Of a DNA stretch of 64,000 nt, positions 21,003 to 29,352 are shown one piece after another (position 1 is the first letter of the stretch; every line of letters begins with the position of its first letter). The notes below the pieces were generated by a model. The model did no database searches, was not told the origin of the DNA, and saw nothing but the letters and a program-made list of their open reading frames with translations. The stretch lies in the NCBI GenBank assembly GCA_028285305.1, contig JANQPV010000013.1, positions 124,001-188,000 of the forward strand, written 5' to 3'. Position numbers and translations under genes: made by a program. This stretch comes from Alphaproteobacteria bacterium (GTDB lineage: Bacteria; Pseudomonadota; Alphaproteobacteria; SMXP01).

Positions 21003-21302
21003 CTTATAGATCTGGAGGGAAAGGGCCAATCGCGCGCGTCAATTCCGAAATCGCAGCGATTATTTTGAAATCGGCGTGTGCTTGGCGAGGGATCGAATTC
21101 CACTCGAACCCCTTGGGACAAGGCGCGAACGCCGACCGAGGCTTTCTTGCAGAGAGTGTGGTTTATGCGCATCGGCGGCCCCCAGACCCTGCCGGATCCT
21201 TGCCTCTCCGTGTGCTTGGTAACCTCTTGTTAACTTTCTGACCTGTAACAATTTGGGACAGGGAGTCTGTGTGGCTTTTCTTTGTGCACGAAGGGAATCG
21301 AG
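21003..21302. other. Intergenic region between divergent genes
   Basis: About 300 bases separating the PQQ dehydrogenase and the inverse-autotransporter-like gene. AT-rich stretches near 21220-21245 may hold the adhesin promoter, but no convincing -35/-10 pair or palindrome was seen, and no coding sequence is supported. Confidence 0.5.
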
Positions 21303-23147
21303 ATGATGCGGGGGTCCAAACTTAATCGCGCCGGAACGCTTTCGGGGTTACTTGCAGGTGTATCTATCCTGGCCATGTGCGCGACCGCACACGCGGAAGG
21401 AAACAAATGGACCCCGTGGATTGAGCTCGGCGGAGCGGGCTCGACCGAGCGCCATCGAGGAGAAATCACCGCGTTCGCCCCCCTGCTTCAGTCGAGAAAA
21501 TCTCTCCTGTTTACGGACTTAAGGGGAAAGCTCTTTGAGCGCGGTGCAGTTGAAGGCAACTTCGCTCTGGGTGTCCGCCACACCCATAACAACAAGGTCA
21601 ATCTCGGCGCCTGGGTTGGTGTCGATATTCGCGAGACTGAATTCGATAATCGCTTTACGCAAGGAGCCGCAGGCATCGAAGCGTTGTGGGAGAGTTTCGA
21701 TTTCAGAGTGAACGGGTACGCGCCCTTTGATAACAAGGCAGACGCCGGCACCGGCGTAACCTCAATCGGCCGCATCTCCGGCGGTACACTTTTGTTGGAT
21801 ACGACCACTACGACGGTCACGGAACGTGCGCTTTGGGGTGTTGACGCCGAAATCGGAATGAGATTTCCACTGAACAAGATCGGCGGCTGGGCCGTCGACA
21901 AACATGAGTTCTGGCTCCATGGCGGCGGCTTCTATTTCGACAATGGCTCCCTAGAGGAGCTGACCGGACCAATGGCTCGCGCGACCTATCGCGTAAACGA
22001 CGTCCTTCCGCAGATCTCTGGTTCGCGCTTGAGTTTCCGCGTCGAGTACAAATACGATGACGTGAGAGACAGCCAAGTGGAAGGCGTGGTCAGATTAAGA
22101 CTGCCGTTTGGTCCGAAGAAGATGACCAGCCGCTACGCGTCGCTCTCTCGCCTTGAAAAGAGGATGAACGAGCGCCTTGAGCGCGACACCGATGTGGTCG
22201 CGACTGCGTCGCGCGAGACCATCTCCGTAACGGAGAATGCCGTCGATGCAAATACGGGCCAGGCGATTACCACAGTGGCGACGGTTGACGGAACCGGGAA
22301 TCTCAACGCAACGGCAGCAGGCGCGGGCGCAAACTCGATCGTTGTGGTGGACGGCAGCGCCGGCGCGGTCAACACAACCGCAACGAATGGCGTCACCATG
22401 GCCGCCAATCAGACTTTGCTGGGGGGAGGCTCCACTTTAACGGTCCGTGGGGCATCCACCGGTGAACTCGGAACGTTTACGGCGCCCGGCACCCGGCCGA
22501 CCATCACCAGTACGGCTCTTTTCCCCGTCGTGACGATCGCAGACGCCAGCCGCGTACAAGGCGTCACGATTGTGGGCAATGGCCTTATTAACAGCAACAA
22601 CAACCGCGGTATTGAAGGCGGCAACAACCTGACCAACGTCAACATTGAGGACGTCCTCGTCCGCGACGTCGGCTATGACGGCATCTTCTTCTCGAACAAC
22701 AACCAAGTCACACTGCGAAATGTAACGTTCCAGGATGTTCGCGACGGGTTGGACTTTGACGACAACAACACGGTGATTGTCGATAATGTAACGATCCTTC
22801 GTGCACGCCGTACAGGCATCGATATGCAAGCTGGAAACAATGTCACCATCACCAATAGCTCGATCTCCGAACTCATTGACGTGCCACCGGTTGATCCCAG
22901 TCATGCGATCTTCATCACCGGTAACAACAATACTGTCAGCATCAACAATACAACGTTTGGTGGCCGGCTTGACGAAGACATCCTTCATATCTCAGGCGGT
23001 GTAACGGGCACGACCCTAAGCGGTGAAGGCAACACGATTGATGCGGGCGCGACACTGCTTGGCGATGTTTGTGATGCAAATGCGGGAACGTTCAGCGGCA
23101 GCGTCGAAATCGGCGGTACCACGTTCACCTCGGCCAACTGTCCATAA
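21303..23147 (+). CDS. Inverse-autotransporter-like outer-membrane protein with beta-helix passenger
   Basis: A 614-residue exported protein. After a signal peptide (to AHAEG) come about 250 residues of alternating amphipathic strands (WTPWIELGGAGSTERHRG; RGKLFERGAVEGNFALGVRHTH; NKVNLGAWVGVDIRETEFDNRF; GWAVDKHEFWLHGGGFYF) matching the intimin/invasin-type inverse autotransporter barrel. A charged segment (about 275-300) leads to a C-terminal right-handed beta-helix rich in N-turns (GNGLINSNNNRGIEGGNN; DDNNTVIVDNVTI; GNNNTVSINN). It likely anchors in the outer membrane and displays the helix outside. AAGGGA six bases before ATG 21303 fixes the start. The gene has its own terminator. Confidence 0.78.
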   Translation: MMRGSKLNRAGTLSGLLAGVSILAMCATAHAEGNKWTPWIELGGAGSTERHRGEITAFAPLLQSRKSLLFTDLRGKLFERGAVEGNFALGVRHTHNNKVNLGAWVGVDIRETEFDNRFTQGAAGIEALWESFDFRVNGYAPFDNKADAGTGVTSIGRISGGTLLLDTTTTTVTERALWGVDAEIGMRFPLNKIGGWAVDKHEFWLHGGGFYFDNGSLEELTGPMARATYRVNDVLPQISGSRLSFRVEYKYDDVRDSQVEGVVRLRLPFGPKKMTSRYASLSRLEKRMNERLERDTDVVATASRETISVTENAVDANTGQAITTVATVDGTGNLNATAAGAGANSIVVVDGSAGAVNTTATNGVTMAANQTLLGGGSTLTVRGASTGELGTFTAPGTRPTITSTALFPVVTIADASRVQGVTIVGNGLINSNNNRGIEGGNNLTNVNIEDVLVRDVGYDGIFFSNNNQVTLRNVTFQDVRDGLDFDDNNTVIVDNVTILRARRTGIDMQAGNNVTITNSSISELIDVPPVDPSHAIFITGNNNTVSINNTTFGGRLDEDILHISGGVTGTTLSGEGNTIDAGATLLGDVCDANAGTFSGSVEIGGTTFTSANCP

Positions 23148-23171: not shown

Positions 23172-23201
23172 AAAGGCAGCCCTTATGGGCTGCCTTTTTG
23201 T
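23172..23201 (+). terminator. Rho-independent terminator of the adhesin gene
   Basis: AAAGGCAGCCC, loop TTAT, GGGCTGCCTTT, then further T residues. The perfect 11-bp stem begins 25 bases after the stop and isolates the upstream gene from the polyamine/PspA cluster. Confidence 0.9.
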
Positions 23202-23438: not shown

Positions 23439-23816
23439 ATGAATGAAAAAGCGACCCGTCCTACCCATCTACCTGGCCAACACGTTTTGATTGATTTGTA
23501 TGGCGCCAGCAAACTAGAGGAAATTGAGAGGATTCGAGATGCTCTTGTCGCAGCGGCCTCAGCTTGTGATGCAACGGTCCTGGATATCCATCTACACAAA
23601 TTCGGCAATAAGGGAGGGGTGACCGGTGTCGCGATCCTGGCCGAATCTCACATTAGCATTCACACCTGGCCAGAGATTGGATTTGCTGCATTGGACATAT
23701 TCGTCTGCGGAAATTGTGACGCAAACTGTGCGATCGAACCAGTTGTCAGAATATTTGAGCCAATTCAAACTCAGATCAACGAAATGGGCCGCGGACAACT
23801 CTTTAAGCAGGCCTAA
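23439..23816 (+). CDS. speD: S-adenosylmethionine decarboxylase proenzyme (SpeD-like)
   Basis: A 125-residue short-form AdoMet decarboxylase of the Bacillus/archaeal type. LAESHISIHTWPE carries the self-cleavage site Glu69-Ser70, which creates the pyruvoyl cofactor, and His75; Cys90 in FVCGNC is the catalytic thiol. It makes decarboxylated AdoMet, the aminopropyl donor for the spermidine-synthase-like protein at the end of the cluster. ATG 23439 is preferred over GTG 23430. A Cys-rich tail (CGNCDANCAIEP) is as in SpeD. First gene of the AT-rich cluster, 118 bases ahead of the next. Confidence 0.92.
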   Translation: MNEKATRPTHLPGQHVLIDLYGASKLEEIERIRDALVAAASACDATVLDIHLHKFGNKGGVTGVAILAESHISIHTWPEIGFAALDIFVCGNCDANCAIEPVVRIFEPIQTQINEMGRGQLFKQA

Positions 23817-23873
23817 CCGCATGCACAAGGAGTACAATTACCAAATTGAGCTCGCAACTTCTAATCCAGAATC

Positions 23874-23901
23874 GACATAATATGTCTTGACATATTATGT
23901 C
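23874..23901. promoter_or_regulatory. 28-bp palindrome over the DUF2170-operon promoter
   Basis: GACATAATATGTC and its exact reverse complement GACATATTATGTC are separated by TT. Each arm is itself almost a palindrome. It overlaps the -35 hexamer of the promoter at 23887, an ideal place for a repressor. Confidence 0.72.
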
Positions 23902-23915
23902 CAATCCCATATATG
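23887..23915 (+). promoter_or_regulatory. Sigma-70-type promoter of the DUF2170-PspA operon
   Basis: Consensus -35 TTGACA (23887-23892), a 17-base spacer, and -10 TATATG (23910-23915). Transcription would start near 23922, leaving a very short leader that begins at the ribosome site GAGGAG (23923-23928). Confidence 0.65.
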
Positions 23916-23934
23916 CAAGCATGAGGAGATGCTT

Positions 23935-24351
23935 ATGACAGACCTAAACTCATTGGCGGAAGAGTTGGCCGAAAAGGGTCGAGATTTACAGCAAGGAACA
24001 AATTTCGAAGTCACGCCCATACCGGGCGACGTGGCGGTGTTCCAAATCCTTGTTGAGGACCAAGAGGAATTGCCACTGTTTCTGTCGGGTTCCGATGGTC
24101 AAATTCTTTGTATTGCATACCTTTTTCGTAAGCATGAAGTCGCGCCGGACAGCAGGGATGAAATGAATGAAGTAATGCTGGCAGCCAACGTATCAATGCC
24201 ATTGTCGTCCTTTGCGCTCATTGATGATCAATATGTCGTTTTTGGTGCCTTATCGGCAAAAGCGAGTATCGAAGACGTCCTTCACGAGATTGAAGTTCTG
24301 TCATCGAACGCCATCGAGGCTATTGATGTGTTGGCGGATTACCTACTCTAA
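23935..24351 (+). CDS. DUF2170 (YjfI-like) protein
   Basis: A 138-residue acidic soluble protein. ATG 23935 has GAGGAG six bases upstream, deciding against a longer frame. The mix of FEVTPIPGDVAVFQILVEDQEELPLFLSGSDGQILCIAYLF and ALIDDQYVVFGALSAKASIEDVLHEIEVLSSNAIEAIDVL matches YjfI of E. coli as I recall it (DUF2170). Its biochemical role is unknown; in many genomes it sits directly before a PspA/IM30 gene, as here (14 bases). It probably acts with PspA. Confidence 0.78.
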   Translation: MTDLNSLAEELAEKGRDLQQGTNFEVTPIPGDVAVFQILVEDQEELPLFLSGSDGQILCIAYLFRKHEVAPDSRDEMNEVMLAANVSMPLSSFALIDDQYVVFGALSAKASIEDVLHEIEVLSSNAIEAIDVLADYLL

Positions 24352-24365
24352 GAAGGAATGTTATC

Positions 24366-25058
24366 GTGTCTATTTTGAGGAAAATTGTCACTGCTATTCG
24401 AGGGGGTGCGCGCGAAGTCGGCGAGGCCATCGTTGATCAGAACAGCGTACGGATATTTGAGCAAGAGATAAAGGACGCGCAAAATCAGCTTGATAAGGCG
24501 AAGATGGACCTTACCGAAGTAATGGCGAAAGAAATGCAGGCAAGCCGAAAGATCGAAGGTTTGCAAGAGGACATCGTTAAACACGAAGGCTATGCTTCAC
24601 AAGCTCTCGACAAGCAGGACGAAGCATTGGCGTTGGAAGTTGCCCAGAAGATAGCAGATCTGCAAGGCGAGCTTGAAATCCAAAAGAAAGCGCAACAGAG
24701 TTTTTCCGCTCACGCAGAACGGTTGAAAGCAATGATAAAAAAAACGACCAAAGCCGTCACTGACTTGGAACGCGAATTGGTCATGGTAAAGACGACAGAA
24801 AGCGTTCAGAAGGCGACGACAGCTATCACTAACAATTATGCATCAGGTAGCTCTCGGTTACTGACGGCAAAGGAGTCGCTCGATCGAATTAAGGAAAGAC
24901 AAACTCACTTGGAAGACCGTTTAGCGGCTGGTGAAGTATTGGAAGGAGAATTTAGCGGTCAAGATTTAGACCAGAAATTGAAGGACGCCGGTATCGTCGA
25001 AGATGATAACAAAGCTAAAGACATTCTAGAGAAACTGAAGGCTGAAAAGGCTAACTAA
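24366..25058 (+). CDS. PspA/IM30 family membrane-remodelling protein (YjfJ-like)
   Basis: A 230-residue protein, almost entirely coiled coil. It begins SILRKIVTAIRGGAREVGEAIVDQNSVRIFEQEIKDAQNQLDKAK, the amphipathic first helix and ALRE-like segment of PspA/Vipp1, followed by long Glu/Lys/Gln heptads and a C-terminal helix after an acidic linker. The family are bacterial ESCRT-III-like proteins that coat and repair stressed inner membrane. GTG 24366 has AAGGA upstream. No pspBC or pspF is nearby, so control differs from the classical psp system. It is two bases from the next gene. Confidence 0.9.
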   Translation: MSILRKIVTAIRGGAREVGEAIVDQNSVRIFEQEIKDAQNQLDKAKMDLTEVMAKEMQASRKIEGLQEDIVKHEGYASQALDKQDEALALEVAQKIADLQGELEIQKKAQQSFSAHAERLKAMIKKTTKAVTDLERELVMVKTTESVQKATTAITNNYASGSSRLLTAKESLDRIKERQTHLEDRLAAGEVLEGEFSGQDLDQKLKDAGIVEDDNKAKDILEKLKAEKAN

Positions 25059-25059
25059 A

Positions 25060-25704
25060 ATGATGCGATTCATCAGAAGCCTTTTGGGATTGAACAATTC
25101 GAATTCAACGGCCCGTTCATTGTCACACCCGAGAGATTTGAGAGCGGGGGATTTCATTAAGTTCGGTTATCTTCCGCAACCGGATATAAGCGCAGGAACG
25201 TTCGAGGTCGCTCAAGTTAACACTTATATGTACGGAGAAATGTGCTATCCGGAACTTGTCCTTAAGGATGGCACTGGCCAAATCGTCTTTATGATGGTCG
25301 ACGAGGAGGACGGTGAGGAGTACATAGCCTTGAGCAAAAAAGTCCAAAAAGCGGATATGAATGAAATCATCAGTGCAACTGACATGCGTCAAGTGCTTGA
25401 GGAGAGTCGGGGCACAACATTCGAAAACAACAGCAAGCCCGAACACCTGTCAGAATGGCTTGTTGGCAAATACACAAAGACGGATCATGAACTCAAGGGC
25501 ACTTATGTCCGCGGAGATGTAAGATACCTATCCAATGAACAAATCGCGAAAAATGAACCGTTCACGTCCTACATATTGGAAGATAGCGACGGTGAATATG
25601 CATTGGAGATTGAAGCTTACGATAGCGGCGAGATAGAATTATGTGCGACGGTTTATCATGACATCAGTGATATTGATGAAATGTGGCCTTCTTCCAACGC
25701 TTAG
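25060..25704 (+). CDS. DUF4178- or DUF2491-like cytoplasmic protein
   Basis: A 214-residue acidic beta-rich protein: HPRDLRAGDFIKFGYLPQPDISAGTFEVAQVNTYMYGEMCYPELVLKDGTG, then YILEDSDGEYALEIEAYDSGEIELCATVYHDISDIDEMW. The pattern of a Gly-Asp turn followed by a two-stranded sheet recalls DUF4178; the position after PspA recalls YjfK (DUF2491) of E. coli. I cannot decide between them. No membrane segment. Two bases separate it from pspA, so it is in the operon. Confidence 0.6.
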   Translation: MMRFIRSLLGLNNSNSTARSLSHPRDLRAGDFIKFGYLPQPDISAGTFEVAQVNTYMYGEMCYPELVLKDGTGQIVFMMVDEEDGEEYIALSKKVQKADMNEIISATDMRQVLEESRGTTFENNSKPEHLSEWLVGKYTKTDHELKGTYVRGDVRYLSNEQIAKNEPFTSYILEDSDGEYALEIEAYDSGEIELCATVYHDISDIDEMWPSSNA

Positions 25705-25773
25705 AGGATCGGCTTAGGTATATTGAGGGTACTGCTCCAAGTTCTCTGTATACGACACACCGGTTAGTTGCGC

Positions 25774-26094
25774 ATGGCACAATCTACCAAGCTGAGTGAC
25801 GGCAAGGAAATCGCCAAGGCCACGCAAATTGCGTTCGAGTTGGAGCAACGTATAGCGAAGCGCATTCATGAGCTGGCCGCACAAAACGGGCTTACCCCTT
25901 CAAGTCAAATTCGTAAAATAATTGGCCTGTCCTACGCACCGCCGAAAAGACCCCGTCTGACGATTTCTCTTTCACAGGAAAACTATAAAGAGTTGGGAAA
26001 GCGTTATGATATTGATCCGCAGGACACAATCGGCATCAAGCGTGAGATTATGAACCAGCTGATCGAATATTTCGACGATGAGAAAGATACGTAA
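25774..26094 (+). CDS. Small ribbon-helix-helix-like protein
   Basis: A 106-residue protein. The N-terminal half (TKLSDGKEIAKATQIAFELEQRIAKRIHELAAQNGLTPSSQIRKIIG) and C-terminal half (RPRLTISLSQENYKELGKRYDIDPQDTIGIKREIMNQLIEYF) each read like a strand followed by two helices, so the protein may hold two RHH units or one RHH and a helical domain. It could be the regulator of the cluster, binding the palindrome at 23874, but that is inference. ATG 25774 has a weak ribosome site. It sits 12 bases upstream of DUF350. Confidence 0.62.
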   Translation: MAQSTKLSDGKEIAKATQIAFELEQRIAKRIHELAAQNGLTPSSQIRKIIGLSYAPPKRPRLTISLSQENYKELGKRYDIDPQDTIGIKREIMNQLIEYFDDEKDT

Positions 26095-26106
26095 CCGGAG
26101 TCAAAA

Positions 26107-26937
26107 ATGGTCGAAGCCTATCTCAAACCATTGGCCTTCTTGGTTGTCTATTTTCTATTGTTTTTCGTGGCCAAGTGGCTGAAAGAGATACTTACGCCAT
26201 ATCTGCTTGATGCGGAGCTTTCAGAAAGGGACAATCCGGCGATTGCTCTTGTCCTATGTGGGTACTATTTCGGAGTAGTTGCTATCTTTGTTGGATCGCT
26301 TCAAGGGCCGTCGCAGTCTTTGATCTACGACCTCGCAAATGTATTATTGTACGGCCTATTAGGATTGGCGTTCTTAAGTACGTCTCGCATTGTTAACGAC
26401 CAAATAATCTTCGGCAAGTTTAGCAATGCCGCCGAACTGGTAGAGAAGCAAAACCTGGCGGTTGGAGCGGTCCAATTTGGCACATACACCGCCACCGGAC
26501 TTATAGCAGCAGGGTCAATTACAGGGACCGGTTCAGTGTGGACTGCTGTCGTGTTTTTTGTTTTGGGACAGCTTTCATTGTTTGTCTTTAGTCGAATTTA
26601 TAATCTCTTCTCTTCCTACAACGTACACGATGAATTAGAAAACCAAAACTTCGCCGTTGGGATTGCAAAAGGCGGTTCACTGATCGCGTTAGGTGTTATA
26701 ATTTTCAACGGAGTATCAGGAGATTTCGTCAATTGGCGCGAAAGCCTGATTAGCTTTGCGATTGTAAATGCAATCGGGTTTGCTTTTTTGCCGGTTTTGC
26801 GGCTGTCCTTGGATCGCTTGGTCATTCCGAAAGTTTCCCTCAGCCGTGAAATCGTCAGAGACAAAAACGTAGGCATTGGTCTGCTTGAGGCTACCATCGC
26901 GATTAGTTTTGCGATGGTGCTAAACGTATTGCTTTAG
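26107..26937 (+). CDS. DUF350 inner-membrane protein (YjfL-like), two repeats
   Basis: A 276-residue protein with about eight hydrophobic helices in two similar halves. Each half has the family mark of an acidic residue and Asn before a buried Ala-Val-Gly: EKQNLAVGAVQFG (about 112) and ENQNFAVGIAKGG (about 178), plus ERDNPAIALVL near 40 and DKNVGIGLLEA near 257. DUF350 is a poorly characterised membrane family often found with PspA and band-7 proteins. Its position suggests it is the membrane partner of this cluster's PspA. The gene is tightly packed with its neighbours. Confidence 0.84.
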   Translation: MVEAYLKPLAFLVVYFLLFFVAKWLKEILTPYLLDAELSERDNPAIALVLCGYYFGVVAIFVGSLQGPSQSLIYDLANVLLYGLLGLAFLSTSRIVNDQIIFGKFSNAAELVEKQNLAVGAVQFGTYTATGLIAAGSITGTGSVWTAVVFFVLGQLSLFVFSRIYNLFSSYNVHDELENQNFAVGIAKGGSLIALGVIIFNGVSGDFVNWRESLISFAIVNAIGFAFLPVLRLSLDRLVIPKVSLSREIVRDKNVGIGLLEATIAISFAMVLNVLL

Positions 26938-26945
26938 GTGCAAGC

Positions 26946-27563
26946 GTGGCTTACAGATTTTCCGAACGGCATCTTCAAGATCGCTCGAACAAGCCAAAAG
27001 ACGGACAAGTCGATCTCTTTAAATTAGCAATCATCTTCGCTTTCTTCGGTGTGCTGAGCTTGATCACCGCCGCCCATTTTCGAGGCAAAGGAGACGAGGT
27101 GGTCAAACTATCGGGCGCTCCGGAAGATACAATCATACAGCAGCCCGCCACACCATTTCTTGTGAAACGCAACAATGAAGTGTTTGACATCAGCGTTCGC
27201 GCCAACCTTCCACTGCAAAGCTGGTCGTTTATTGAAGGGCAAATTCTTGATGCAAACCAAGAATACCTGTTCTCTTTCGGCAAAGAACTCTGGTTTGAAG
27301 AAGGCCGGGACAGCCAGGGCTATTACTGGAAACAAAAGGATACACAATACAGTCTTGATATTACGCTGCCTCAAACAGGTCTCCACCACGTTCAATTTTT
27401 GATTGACTCTGAGCAAGCCCCGTCGAACGTTCGAATAGAAATGTACCGGCAGACGGGAAGCTCGATTCCCCACTTCTGGTTTGGCGTCATTTGCTTAGTC
27501 ATAGCCATTTGCCTGAATGAACAAAAGAACTGGACCATATCAAATTTGATCAGTGACCTATGA
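26946..27563 (+). CDS. Membrane-anchored beta-domain protein of the PspA/DUF350 cluster
   Basis: A 205-residue protein with one membrane helix near residues 24-44 (LFKLAIIFAFFGVLSLITAAHF) and another near 178-194 (PHFWFGVICLVIAICL). Between them lies an extracytoplasmic beta-sandwich-like domain (DISVRANLPLQSWSFIEGQILDANQEYLFSFGKELWFEEGRDSQGYYW). I recall similar segments at the C-terminal end of long DUF4178 proteins, which would make this the missing half of the protein at 25060; this is from memory and unverified. GTG 26946. Its last bases overlap the next start codon. Confidence 0.62.
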   Translation: MAYRFSERHLQDRSNKPKDGQVDLFKLAIIFAFFGVLSLITAAHFRGKGDEVVKLSGAPEDTIIQQPATPFLVKRNNEVFDISVRANLPLQSWSFIEGQILDANQEYLFSFGKELWFEEGRDSQGYYWKQKDTQYSLDITLPQTGLHHVQFLIDSEQAPSNVRIEMYRQTGSSIPHFWFGVICLVIAICLNEQKNWTISNLISDL

Positions 27564-27796
27564 TGAGCAATCATACAAAAGCGGCTCTCGCTGCTATCAT
27601 CAGTCTAGCTGCAATTTATTTTCTGCTTCTGCCACTCGGTAGCAATGGCTACGGATATGCAGGATACTATGGCTACCACCGGGGCCCGTCGTTCCTCTAT
27701 TCCGGAAGCGCCACAACGTATCATGAAAGAGGCGTGCGCGACGGCAGTATCGGTGGCCCGGATTTTCGTGGTGGCGGTCCCGGCAGCGGAAAATAA
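27560..27796 (+). CDS. Small Gly/Tyr-rich membrane protein
   Basis: A 78-residue protein with one N-terminal membrane helix or signal (AALAAIISLAAIYFLLLPLG) and a Gly/Tyr/Ser-rich tail (GYGYAGYYGYHRGPSFLYSG; GGPDFRGGGPGSGK). No known domain. The ATGA overlap with the preceding gene and 17-base gap to the next support translation as part of the operon. An in-frame ATG three bases later is an equal start. Confidence 0.65.
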   Translation: MMSNHTKAALAAIISLAAIYFLLLPLGSNGYGYAGYYGYHRGPSFLYSGSATTYHERGVRDGSIGGPDFRGGGPGSGK

Positions 27797-27813
27797 GAAG
27801 CGGAATGTGAAAC

Positions 27814-29352
27814 ATGGATCCGGCGTTTCCTCAATCGCAAAAACGTCTTTATACGTTAATCTATACAGCGTTCATTGCGGGATTGTGCTCGATTGTCTAT
27901 GAACTGCTGATTGCCACGACAATTTCTTACTTCCTAGGGGATAGTGTTAAGTACTTTTCGATTACCATCGGCCTATATATGGCGGCGATGGGGGCCGGAT
28001 CCTATTTGTCGAAATACATAGACGGCAATCTGCTGCAGAAATTCGTTGTCGTCGAGCTCCTGCTCGGATTCTTAGGTGGAGCCAGCGTGCCTACCTTGTA
28101 TCTGGCATATGCGTATACAGAAAGTCTTATCCCAATCTATATCTTTCTAACCTGTGCGGTTGGATTTCTCATCGGGCTTGAAATCCCGTTTCTTGCCCGG
28201 CTAATGGAAGACTATAACAAGCTCAAGTTCAATATCGCCAACATACTGTCGTTTGATTATTTGGGCGCCTTAGTTGCAACTCTGTCGTTTCCATTTTTGC
28301 TTTTGCCCTACATTGGCGTTTACAAATCATCTTTGCTGTTTGGTTTGATCAACCTATCCCTCGGCTTCATTGTCCTGTTGGTATTCAGAGACGAGATCGG
28401 ACAACAATACCGTCAAATGCGGAATATCAACATTGTGCTTGCCATGTCCACGGCTAGCCTGATCGGCTTTTCTGGTTTCTTCCTACAAAACTGGAATCAA
28501 GCACTCTATGAGGATCGAATAGTTCACTCAGAACAAACTCCCTATCAAAAAATTGTCCTTACCAAACATAGAAATGATGTTCGTTTGTTTCTCGATGGGA
28601 ACTTACAATTTTCATCCGTAGACGAATATAGATATCATGAGGCGCTCATTCACGTTCCAATGTCTTTGTCAACACATCCAATACGTCGCGTTTTGCTGTT
28701 GGGTGCAGGGGACGGATTGGCCGTGCGAGAATTACTTAAGCACAAAGCAATCCAAGAGATTGTCCTTGTGGATTTGGACCAGGCGTTGGTCCAATTAGCT
28801 AAAAGCAACCCGCACTTGGTCAAGCTCAATGAGCGAAGCCTGTTTTCTCCGATAGTCCACATTGAGATCGGAGATGCATTTTCATATCTGCAATCAAATC
28901 AACGCCCCTTTGATTTGATTGTGAGCGATTTGCCAGACCCCAACAATGCGTCCCTTGCTAGGCTGTACAGCAAACAGTTCTTCCAACTGACTCAACGAAA
29001 CTTGTCGCCAGCAGGTCTTTTTGTGAGTCAGGCAACGAGCCCTTACTTTGCAAAAGAGGCCTTTTGGAGCATTTCCAAGACGGTCCGGGAGAGCGGCTTT
29101 CAGTTTACCCATCCTTATCAAGCTTCCGTCCCGTCATTTGGCAACTGGGGCTTTGTACTAGCGTCGCGCGAGTCTATCGATATTGCAGAGGCAGACTTAG
29201 AGATTGATACACGGTACTTGGAAGCGGATATCATTCCGCATCTGTTTAACCTTGAGAAGGACGTCATAACCTCGGATGTCGAGGTCAATACTCTAGACCG
29301 TCCGATTCTGCTGAGTTACTACCTTGACGGATGGCGAAACTTCGCTCGTTAG
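27814..29352 (+). CDS. Polyamine aminopropyltransferase (spermidine synthase) domain fused to a membrane domain
   Basis: A 512-residue protein. Residues 1-225 form about seven hydrophobic helices (FIAGLCSIVYELLIATTISYFLGDSV; ITIGLYMAAMGAGSYL). Residues 235-512 are a spermidine-synthase fold: TPYQKIVLTKHRNDVRLFLDG, EALIHVPMSLS, LLLGAGDGLAVRELLKH (SAM/dcSAM site), VLVDLDQALV, and DLIVSDLPDPN with the catalytic Asp region. The dcSAM it would need can be supplied by the SpeD gene in the same cluster. The membrane fusion suggests an amine or lipid-headgroup acceptor at the membrane rather than free putrescine (inference). Last gene of the cluster. Confidence 0.88.
   Translation: MDPAFPQSQKRLYTLIYTAFIAGLCSIVYELLIATTISYFLGDSVKYFSITIGLYMAAMGAGSYLSKYIDGNLLQKFVVVELLLGFLGGASVPTLYLAYAYTESLIPIYIFLTCAVGFLIGLEIPFLARLMEDYNKLKFNIANILSFDYLGALVATLSFPFLLLPYIGVYKSSLLFGLINLSLGFIVLLVFRDEIGQQYRQMRNINIVLAMSTASLIGFSGFFLQNWNQALYEDRIVHSEQTPYQKIVLTKHRNDVRLFLDGNLQFSSVDEYRYHEALIHVPMSLSTHPIRRVLLLGAGDGLAVRELLKHKAIQEIVLVDLDQALVQLAKSNPHLVKLNERSLFSPIVHIEIGDAFSYLQSNQRPFDLIVSDLPDPNNASLARLYSKQFFQLTQRNLSPAGLFVSQATSPYFAKEAFWSISKTVRESGFQFTHPYQASVPSFGNWGFVLASRESIDIAEADLEIDTRYLEADIIPHLFNLEKDVITSDVEVNTLDRPILLSYYLDGWRNFAR

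Follow-up and report, generated by a model that had tools for sequence, protein, structure and literature searches.

In a 64,000-nt stretch of an alphaproteobacterial genome (assembly GCA_028285305.1, contig JANQPV010000013.1, positions 124,001 to 188,000; hereafter the window) a nine-gene operon combines SpeD, an S-adenosylmethionine (AdoMet) decarboxylase, with a membrane-bound aminopropyltransferase (APT), a PspA/IM30 protein and a DUF350 protein. The operon also encodes a 78-aa membrane peptide whose C-terminal residue is a strictly conserved lysine. From sequence comparisons we propose, with a probability of roughly 55%, that the APT modifies this lysine by aminopropylation. The lysine tail is a new result and goes beyond what had been listed in a previous description of the block made from the DNA letters (the sequence-only reading). 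Families were assigned by Pfam and NCBIfam searches against curated cut-offs. The features that carry the proposal are located in the window as follows:

23439..23816, + strand: speD, class 1b AdoMet decarboxylase proenzyme (TIGR03330 and AdoMet_dc above cut-off)
27560..27796, + strand: 78-aa peptide with a single transmembrane (TM) segment and a Gly-rich tail, the proposed acceptor (without Pfam or NCBIfam match)
27737..27793, + strand: C-terminal tag RDGSIGGPDFRGGGPGSGK of the 78-aa peptide, codon of Lys78 at 27791-27793
27814..29352, + strand: 7-TM membrane domain fused to the APT domain, PRK03612 (NF002956, 589.7 bits)

According to the proposed mechanism SpeD would make decarboxylated AdoMet (dcSAM), and the APT would move the aminopropyl group onto the side-chain amine of Lys78, whose -(CH2)4-NH2 arm resembles putrescine, the normal acceptor of aminopropyltransferases. 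The reaction would leave an N-epsilon-(3-aminopropyl)lysine, or a longer form of it, at the end of a Gly/Ser/Arg tail that is flexible and lies on the outer side of the inner membrane. DUF350, the 205-aa protein encoded next to the peptide, and PspA/DUF2170 may form a membrane complex in which the cationic tail would work, with envelope stress as the probable setting.

The 78-aa peptide consists of one membrane segment followed by a Gly-rich tail ending in ..RDGSIGGPDFRGGGPGSGK. The C-terminal lysine is present in 17 of 17 members of the family, and in an alignment of 15 members R60, S63, G66, G73, G77, and K78 are invariant. At the DNA level the pattern GGGxxxGK-stop occurs once in the 5.4-Mb genome, namely in the 78-aa gene. 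A profile of the family gave ten strong matches among 398 genomes, all of them in genomes that have an APT match (one of these APT matches is fragmentary).

The tail was then followed over a sample of 128 membrane-APT loci, with 20 ordinary speE loci as control. A tail ending in lysine (K tail) was found at 97 loci, a count that includes loci accepted by eye beyond the 60 that satisfy a strict composition-plus-TM rule; a tail ending in Gly-Gly (GG tail) was found at 5, and no tail in the sequence at hand at 26. Some of the tails accepted by eye belong to split operons, where they are encoded in the divergent half. Under the strict rule the K tail was never encountered on the nearby opposite strand, and none of the 20 control loci had a tail. 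A position matrix of the tail, trained solely on the 78-aa family, was run over the 16,639 open reading frames (ORFs) of the 128 loci. All 39 top-scoring ORFs belong to the APT operon and share its strand; of these, 23 are carriers outside the 78-aa family as judged by hidden Markov model (HMM), one of which (in locus L180) is a family member by eye. Once the rule had been fixed, six more plasmid records with an APT were retrieved, and all six contain a K tail.

At least five unrelated carrier architectures bear the K tail. Besides the 78-aa family these comprise a lipoprotein of about 330 aa in a gammaproteobacteria-type clade (K end in 11/11), DUF4178-containing proteins of Bacillota, DUF4247 lipoproteins, zinc-ribbon/DUF4178 proteins of about 500 aa ending in GGGHK or GGSHK, and single-TM peptides of 45-65 aa ending in YHK, THK, GRVK or GGK. 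In these carriers a TM segment or an N-terminal lipoprotein signal, nearly always just one, precedes the tail, so that the tail would lie outside, on the same side as predicted for the APT domain. The 78-aa and 205-aa proteins of the window themselves begin with TM segments and have no evident lipobox. A Paenibacillus plasmid carries a PspA-DUF350-DUF4178-DUF4247 operon (L227:3929-4687) which has no APT match on the record and whose DUF4247 protein lacks the K end; this single case is consistent with a link between tail and APT.

Both enzymes look functional as far as can be judged from their residues. SpeD scores 122 bits with TIGR03330 (cut-off 75.65) and could be aligned with the T. maritima and 2iii enzymes through ..AESHISIHTWPE..FVCGN... 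This alignment with solved AdoMet decarboxylases shows that SpeD retains the processing Ser, His, and Cys; with a pyruvoyl-forming Ser, a processing His, a catalytic Cys and a score above the family cut-off, the protein belongs to class 1b. The possibility that SpeD is a repurposed ornithine or arginine decarboxylase is disfavoured, since the protein passes the cut-off of the AdoMet decarboxylase equivalog and adjoins the APT; the substrate residues do not resolve this point. The APT passes NF002956 (PRK03612) with 589.7 bits at a cut-off of 472. The structural model (predicted local distance difference test, pLDDT, 93) predicts seven membrane helices, not 12, followed by a catalytic domain of canonical fold that best matches solved aminopropyltransferases. 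The aspartate pair D372 and D375, taken as catalytic, as well as Y244, Q245, and the motif of the dcSAM site are invariant or nearly so among 52 homologues (for the roles of these residues in spermidine synthases see PMC12812037 and PMC10146546). The loss of an acidic residue at the acceptor site was considered as proof of a substrate other than a diamine and was dropped, as this position looks variable among ordinary spermidine synthases. The PADLOC match of the APT (mad2) extends over only a portion of the transferase domain, and those of PspA seem to reflect a shared coiled coil; a reading as anti-phage defence was rejected.

The canonical fold and the presence of both acceptor-site aspartates would also suit an enzyme that makes a free polyamine such as spermidine or aminopropylcadaverine, with the tail binding the polyamine or being structural and the membrane domain only localising or exporting the product. 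However, a diamine substrate is not evident in this genome. The operon SpeD is the sole AdoMet_dc match of the genome and the operon APT the sole Spermine_synth match. The only PF02784 protein adjoins an argH-like gene and, judged by eye from the sequence, resembles LysA; all PF01276 matches are below cut-off, and the PF03435 matches look unlike carboxyspermidine dehydrogenase. Thus no recognised ornithine or arginine decarboxylase, no second SpeD and no second SpeE were found in the genome as searched, the assembly being 95% complete and no search having been aimed at agmatine routes or homospermidine synthase. With no second spermidine synthase, a LysA-like PF02784 protein and PF01276 matches below cut-off, the classical spermidine pathway is not evident. 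The source organism may lack ordinary spermidine synthesis. Free polyamine production also leaves unexplained why the tail ends strictly in lysine where the ligase described below is missing and in GG where it is present, and we regard it as unlikely, even though in genomes with ligase and GG tail the APT plausibly feeds spermidine to the ligase.

ORFs of the GSP_synth ATP-grasp type are present in five of the 128 APT loci, all from Bacteroidota, and these are exactly the five loci with a GG tail (Fisher p = 1.2e-8, without correction for relatedness, which overstates independence). In Paraglaciecola and Alteromonas we found two SpeD-APT loci without tail. Both Alteromonadaceae genomes carry an operon of DUF350, a GG-tail lipoprotein and an ATP-grasp protein elsewhere, and one of the two tail-less APTs is the sister of a K-tail APT. 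The active sites of K-tail and GG-tail APTs differ in three weak columns only. E. coli yjfI-yjfJ-yjfK-yjfL-yjfM-yjfC and ygiB-ygiC have a similar layout; YjfM and YgiB end in GG, and YjfC and YgiC are named peptide--spermidine ligase in RefSeq (peptide-spermidine ligases YjfC/YgiC: Pederick et al. 2023, as cited in PMC12568646). The window operon resembles E. coli yjf in its DUF2170, PspA, and DUF350 neighbours, in a membrane-anchored protein whose C-terminal tail is rich in Gly, Ser, and Arg, and in its polyamine chemistry. The difference is that the YjfC/YgiC systems combine an ATP-grasp amide ligase with a GG end, whereas the window has an aminopropyltransferase, a GK end and no ATP-grasp gene. 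The window system would then be the lysine counterpart of the E. coli pair of ATP-grasp YjfC/YgiC and GG-ending lipoprotein: the GG end would offer a carboxylate to an ATP-dependent ligase and the lysine end a four-carbon amine to an aminopropyltransferase. In the simplest reading the terminal residue would be, for each enzyme, the site at which the polyamine-type group is attached.

The lysine could instead be a motif for interaction or sorting (with DUF350, PspA or a protease as partner) that evolved together with the complex, the enzyme acting on something else. This is suggested by locus L211, where tail, DUF350 and 205-aa protein stay together although the APT gene is elsewhere. On the other hand, the end residue switches with the type of enzyme and not with DUF350, which accompanies K tails as well as the GG tails of the E. 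coli and Alteromonadaceae operons, and the sole DUF4247 plasmid operon without APT match has no K end. A pure sorting motif therefore appears quite unlikely to us.

The sequence-only reading had suggested that dcSAM is used under stress to modify a membrane amine or a lipid headgroup. The coupling of SpeD to a membrane APT beside PspA and DUF350 stands; nothing that we found points to a lipid. It is true that the fusion of the APT to seven membrane helices and the neighbouring PspA would be compatible with the aminopropylation of phosphatidylethanolamine, ornithine lipid or a similar lipid amine under envelope stress. But this would give the lysine tail no role, the enzyme family spans phyla with very different lipids, and among the clustered families no gene of lipid metabolism stood out as a recurrent neighbour. 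Since the operon encodes a peptide tail with an invariant C-terminal lysine, and the terminal residue changes with the polyamine-linking enzyme, we do not favour the lipid headgroup and consider a lipid acceptor improbable.

Several observations weigh against aminopropylation of the lysine tail. The first concerns topology. The loops of the APT contain on average 2.6-3.1 Lys and Arg after helices 2, 4, and 6 compared with 0.3-0.8 after helices 1, 3, and 5; by the positive-inside rule, with the N terminus inside and seven helices, the catalytic domain is predicted to be outside. An extracytoplasmic catalytic domain conflicts with a cytoplasmic donor, so that either dcSAM would have to be exported, with DUF350 or the 7-TM domain as candidate routes, or the predicted topology is wrong. 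Alternatively the tail might be modified before export; the same would have to hold for a lipoprotein tail if its ATP-grasp enzyme is cytoplasmic. Second, the tail could be recognised and yet stay unmodified, and the position preceding the lysine is not constant (G, H, V, I), which would make recognition loose in some lineages. Third, the survey has its own weak points. Apart from the loci accepted by eye, about ten of the 26 tail-less loci have a contig end within 3.7 kb of the APT gene and the others are unexplained; in one genome the APT gene stands alone and the DUF350, 205-aa, and 78-aa genes are on another contig. The ligase was sought with an HMM for YgiC/YjfC over the APT loci and not genome-wide in the K-tail genomes, and on the tree the GG label changes at least five times among the sampled rows, about three of which are clearly separate switches.

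For the more general statement, that bacteria of many phyla aminopropylate the C-terminal lysine of a membrane-anchored tail with dcSAM, possibly at the outer face, that the ATP-grasp/GG system is an interchangeable counterpart and that SpeD serves protein modification there and not free polyamines, we see an even chance. If aminopropylation of the tail is correct, it would be a new bacterial route to positive charge at the membrane and would add, in bacteria, a modification of lysine akin to those of hypusine and the silaffins; it would also explain why bacteria with no evident spermidine pathway have SpeD genes. The APT and ATP-grasp operons around PspA and DUF350 would then be two means of equipping a membrane tail with polyamine charge. 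In diatom silaffins the epsilon-amine of lysine bears aminopropyl or oligo-propyleneimine units (PMC4557024), and aminopropylation of a lysine epsilon-amine is the chemistry proposed for the window; the silaffins are eukaryotic, are modified at internal lysines and serve silica formation, and we claim no homology to the window system.

Fusions of a membrane domain to spermidine synthase reportedly do not replace spermidine synthase; spermidine is said to be absent and another substrate to be required, which speaks against a free polyamine as the product. To our knowledge, neither Li and colleagues in 2019 nor Ravi and colleagues in 2024 pointed out the C-terminal lysine tail or an acceptor. 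A literature search gave no paper linking an aminopropyltransferase with a C-terminal lysine. The operon type itself has been published and is not new. Clusters of AdoMet decarboxylase, a fusion of major facilitator superfamily (MFS) domain and spermidine synthase, and DUF350 are described by Li et al. 2019 (Biochem J 476:2579, as cited in PMC11237479), and the operon group outlined by Ravi et al. 2024 (PMC11237479) consists of a DUF2170-PspA dyad, a 7TM spermidine-synthase fusion, an 8TM DUF350, DUF4178, a lipoprotein and sometimes a ribbon-helix-helix (RHH) gene. The window has the same gene set as the second DUF2170(CesT/Tir)-PspA group of Ravi et al. and the clusters of Li et al., with the 108-aa protein as a possible small regulator, and is a member of this type; of the genes of the group it contains DUF2170, PspA, the 7TM APT, the 8TM DUF350 and, below threshold, DUF4178. 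Its APT is unlike the MFS fusions of Li et al. in having seven helices and in scoring 33.7 bits with MFS_SpdSyn (NF037959), below the NCBI cut-off of 40. Where Ravi et al. 2024 discuss these operons, aminopropylation of other substrates is mentioned in general terms only. The sequence-only reading had left the chemical product unnamed, which is also the position of the literature (Li et al. 2019, as cited in PMC11237479); its neighbourhood had been published (Ravi et al. 2024). A specific acceptor residue would make the substrate of the membrane APTs directly testable with one peptide and one mass shift (+57.058 Da).

The remaining features of the block are:

23172..23197, + strand: terminator-like hairpin with 11-bp stem and T-rich tail that sets the block apart from the upstream gene (pattern match only)
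23929..24351, + strand: DUF2170 protein of the YjfI/BacA type, CesT/Tir-like (PF09938, 2.5e-35)
24366..25058, + strand: PspA/IM30 protein of the YjfJ type (PF04012, 2.7e-37)
25060..25704, + strand: DUF4178-like cytoplasmic protein, 214 aa (PF13785, 3.7e-4; 21.1, below the gathering score of 25)
25774..26094, + strand: small basic 108-aa protein, possible RHH regulator (without Pfam or NCBIfam match)
26107..26937, + strand: DUF350 membrane protein of the YjfL type with two DUF350 units (PF03994, 3.8e-49, two stretches)
26946..27563, + strand: 205-aa protein of unnamed family with two membrane segments, one close to either end, and a longer part between them (without family match)

The ORF check of the window confirmed the observation of the sequence-only reading. 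All nine closely spaced ORFs are present on the + strand in the order described, with gaps of -4 to 106 bp; the 78-aa gene overlaps the 205-aa gene by 4 bp. As a small correction, the likely starts are 23439 for SpeD and 23929 or 23935 for DUF2170. The block is AT-rich as stated (GC content 0.44-0.48 compared with about 0.52-0.61 in the flanks), the hairpin agrees with the terminator placed on its left, and the YjfC partner described as lacking is indeed absent, since no GSP_synth-type ATP-grasp ORF was found in a search confined to the 64-kb window. The calls of AdoMet decarboxylase, PspA/IM30, and DUF350 rest on solid Pfam and NCBIfam matches and the APT model agrees with about seven helices; of the families proposed for HMM search DUF2170, DUF350, and PspA_IM30 are solid and DUF4178 stays below cut-off (21.1 vs 25). 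The 108-, 205-, and 78-aa proteins belong to no Pfam or NCBIfam family, as the suggestion of proteins of unknown family had implied. The interpretation further depended on intact catalytic residues and on a neighbourhood that recurs in other genomes: the residues of SpeD and APT are kept on alignment, and the neighbourhood recurs across phyla.

Homologues of the DUF4178-like and the 205-aa protein are present in 45 and 51 APT loci, and conserved homologues of the 108-aa protein adjoin the APT in 15; an RHH gene is described in this operon group by Ravi et al. 2024 (PMC11237479). The model of the DUF350 protein (pLDDT 86), with its double unit, has no fold match among the solved PDB structures (best Foldseek E 0.66), and the idea of DUF350 as a recognisable transporter was dropped on this account. 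No sigma-54 site, as proposed for the P. aeruginosa bac operon, was found near the operon start, nor an excess of such sites in the window; sigma-70-like sites are at chance level.

A membrane APT above the NF002956 cut-off is encoded in 44 of 398 Pseudomonadota genomes and in none of four genomes of the same family. In one tree the window APT clusters with sequences of another class, apart from those of its own class that were sampled (98/95 support); in a second tree it groups with Rhizobium and Alteromonadaceae. Together with the low GC content this placement indicates horizontal transfer. The nine-gene order recurs gene for gene in a genome of another class (locus L057), with one additional M50B-like gene, and is therefore not due to chance.

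Some further neighbours of the APT genes may be mentioned. A Peptidase_M50B-like membrane protein adjoins SpeD in L057 (13217-13888; PF13398 tested on this locus), L078, L079, L080, and L119 and is absent from the window. In 17 loci (L161:10625-12238 and 16 others) a same-strand neighbour of the APT is an FAD-dependent amine-oxidase-like protein, with an export-type N terminus in the examples seen; its substrate might be the aminopropylated product. Recurrent genes near the APT also code for a two-TM potassium-channel-like protein with RCK/TrkA domains (L106:4301-5329; 13 loci) and a Band-7/SHOCT protein (L169:5527-6567; 10 loci). In many phyla the domain of the 205-aa protein is fused to an N-terminal zinc-ribbon/DUF4178-like part, giving proteins of 420-460 aa (L154:7240-8577 and similar). 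The upstream neighbour of the block in the window (21282-23147) encodes an exported-looking protein of 621 aa, the C-terminal half of which is long, Asn/Thr-rich and repetitive.

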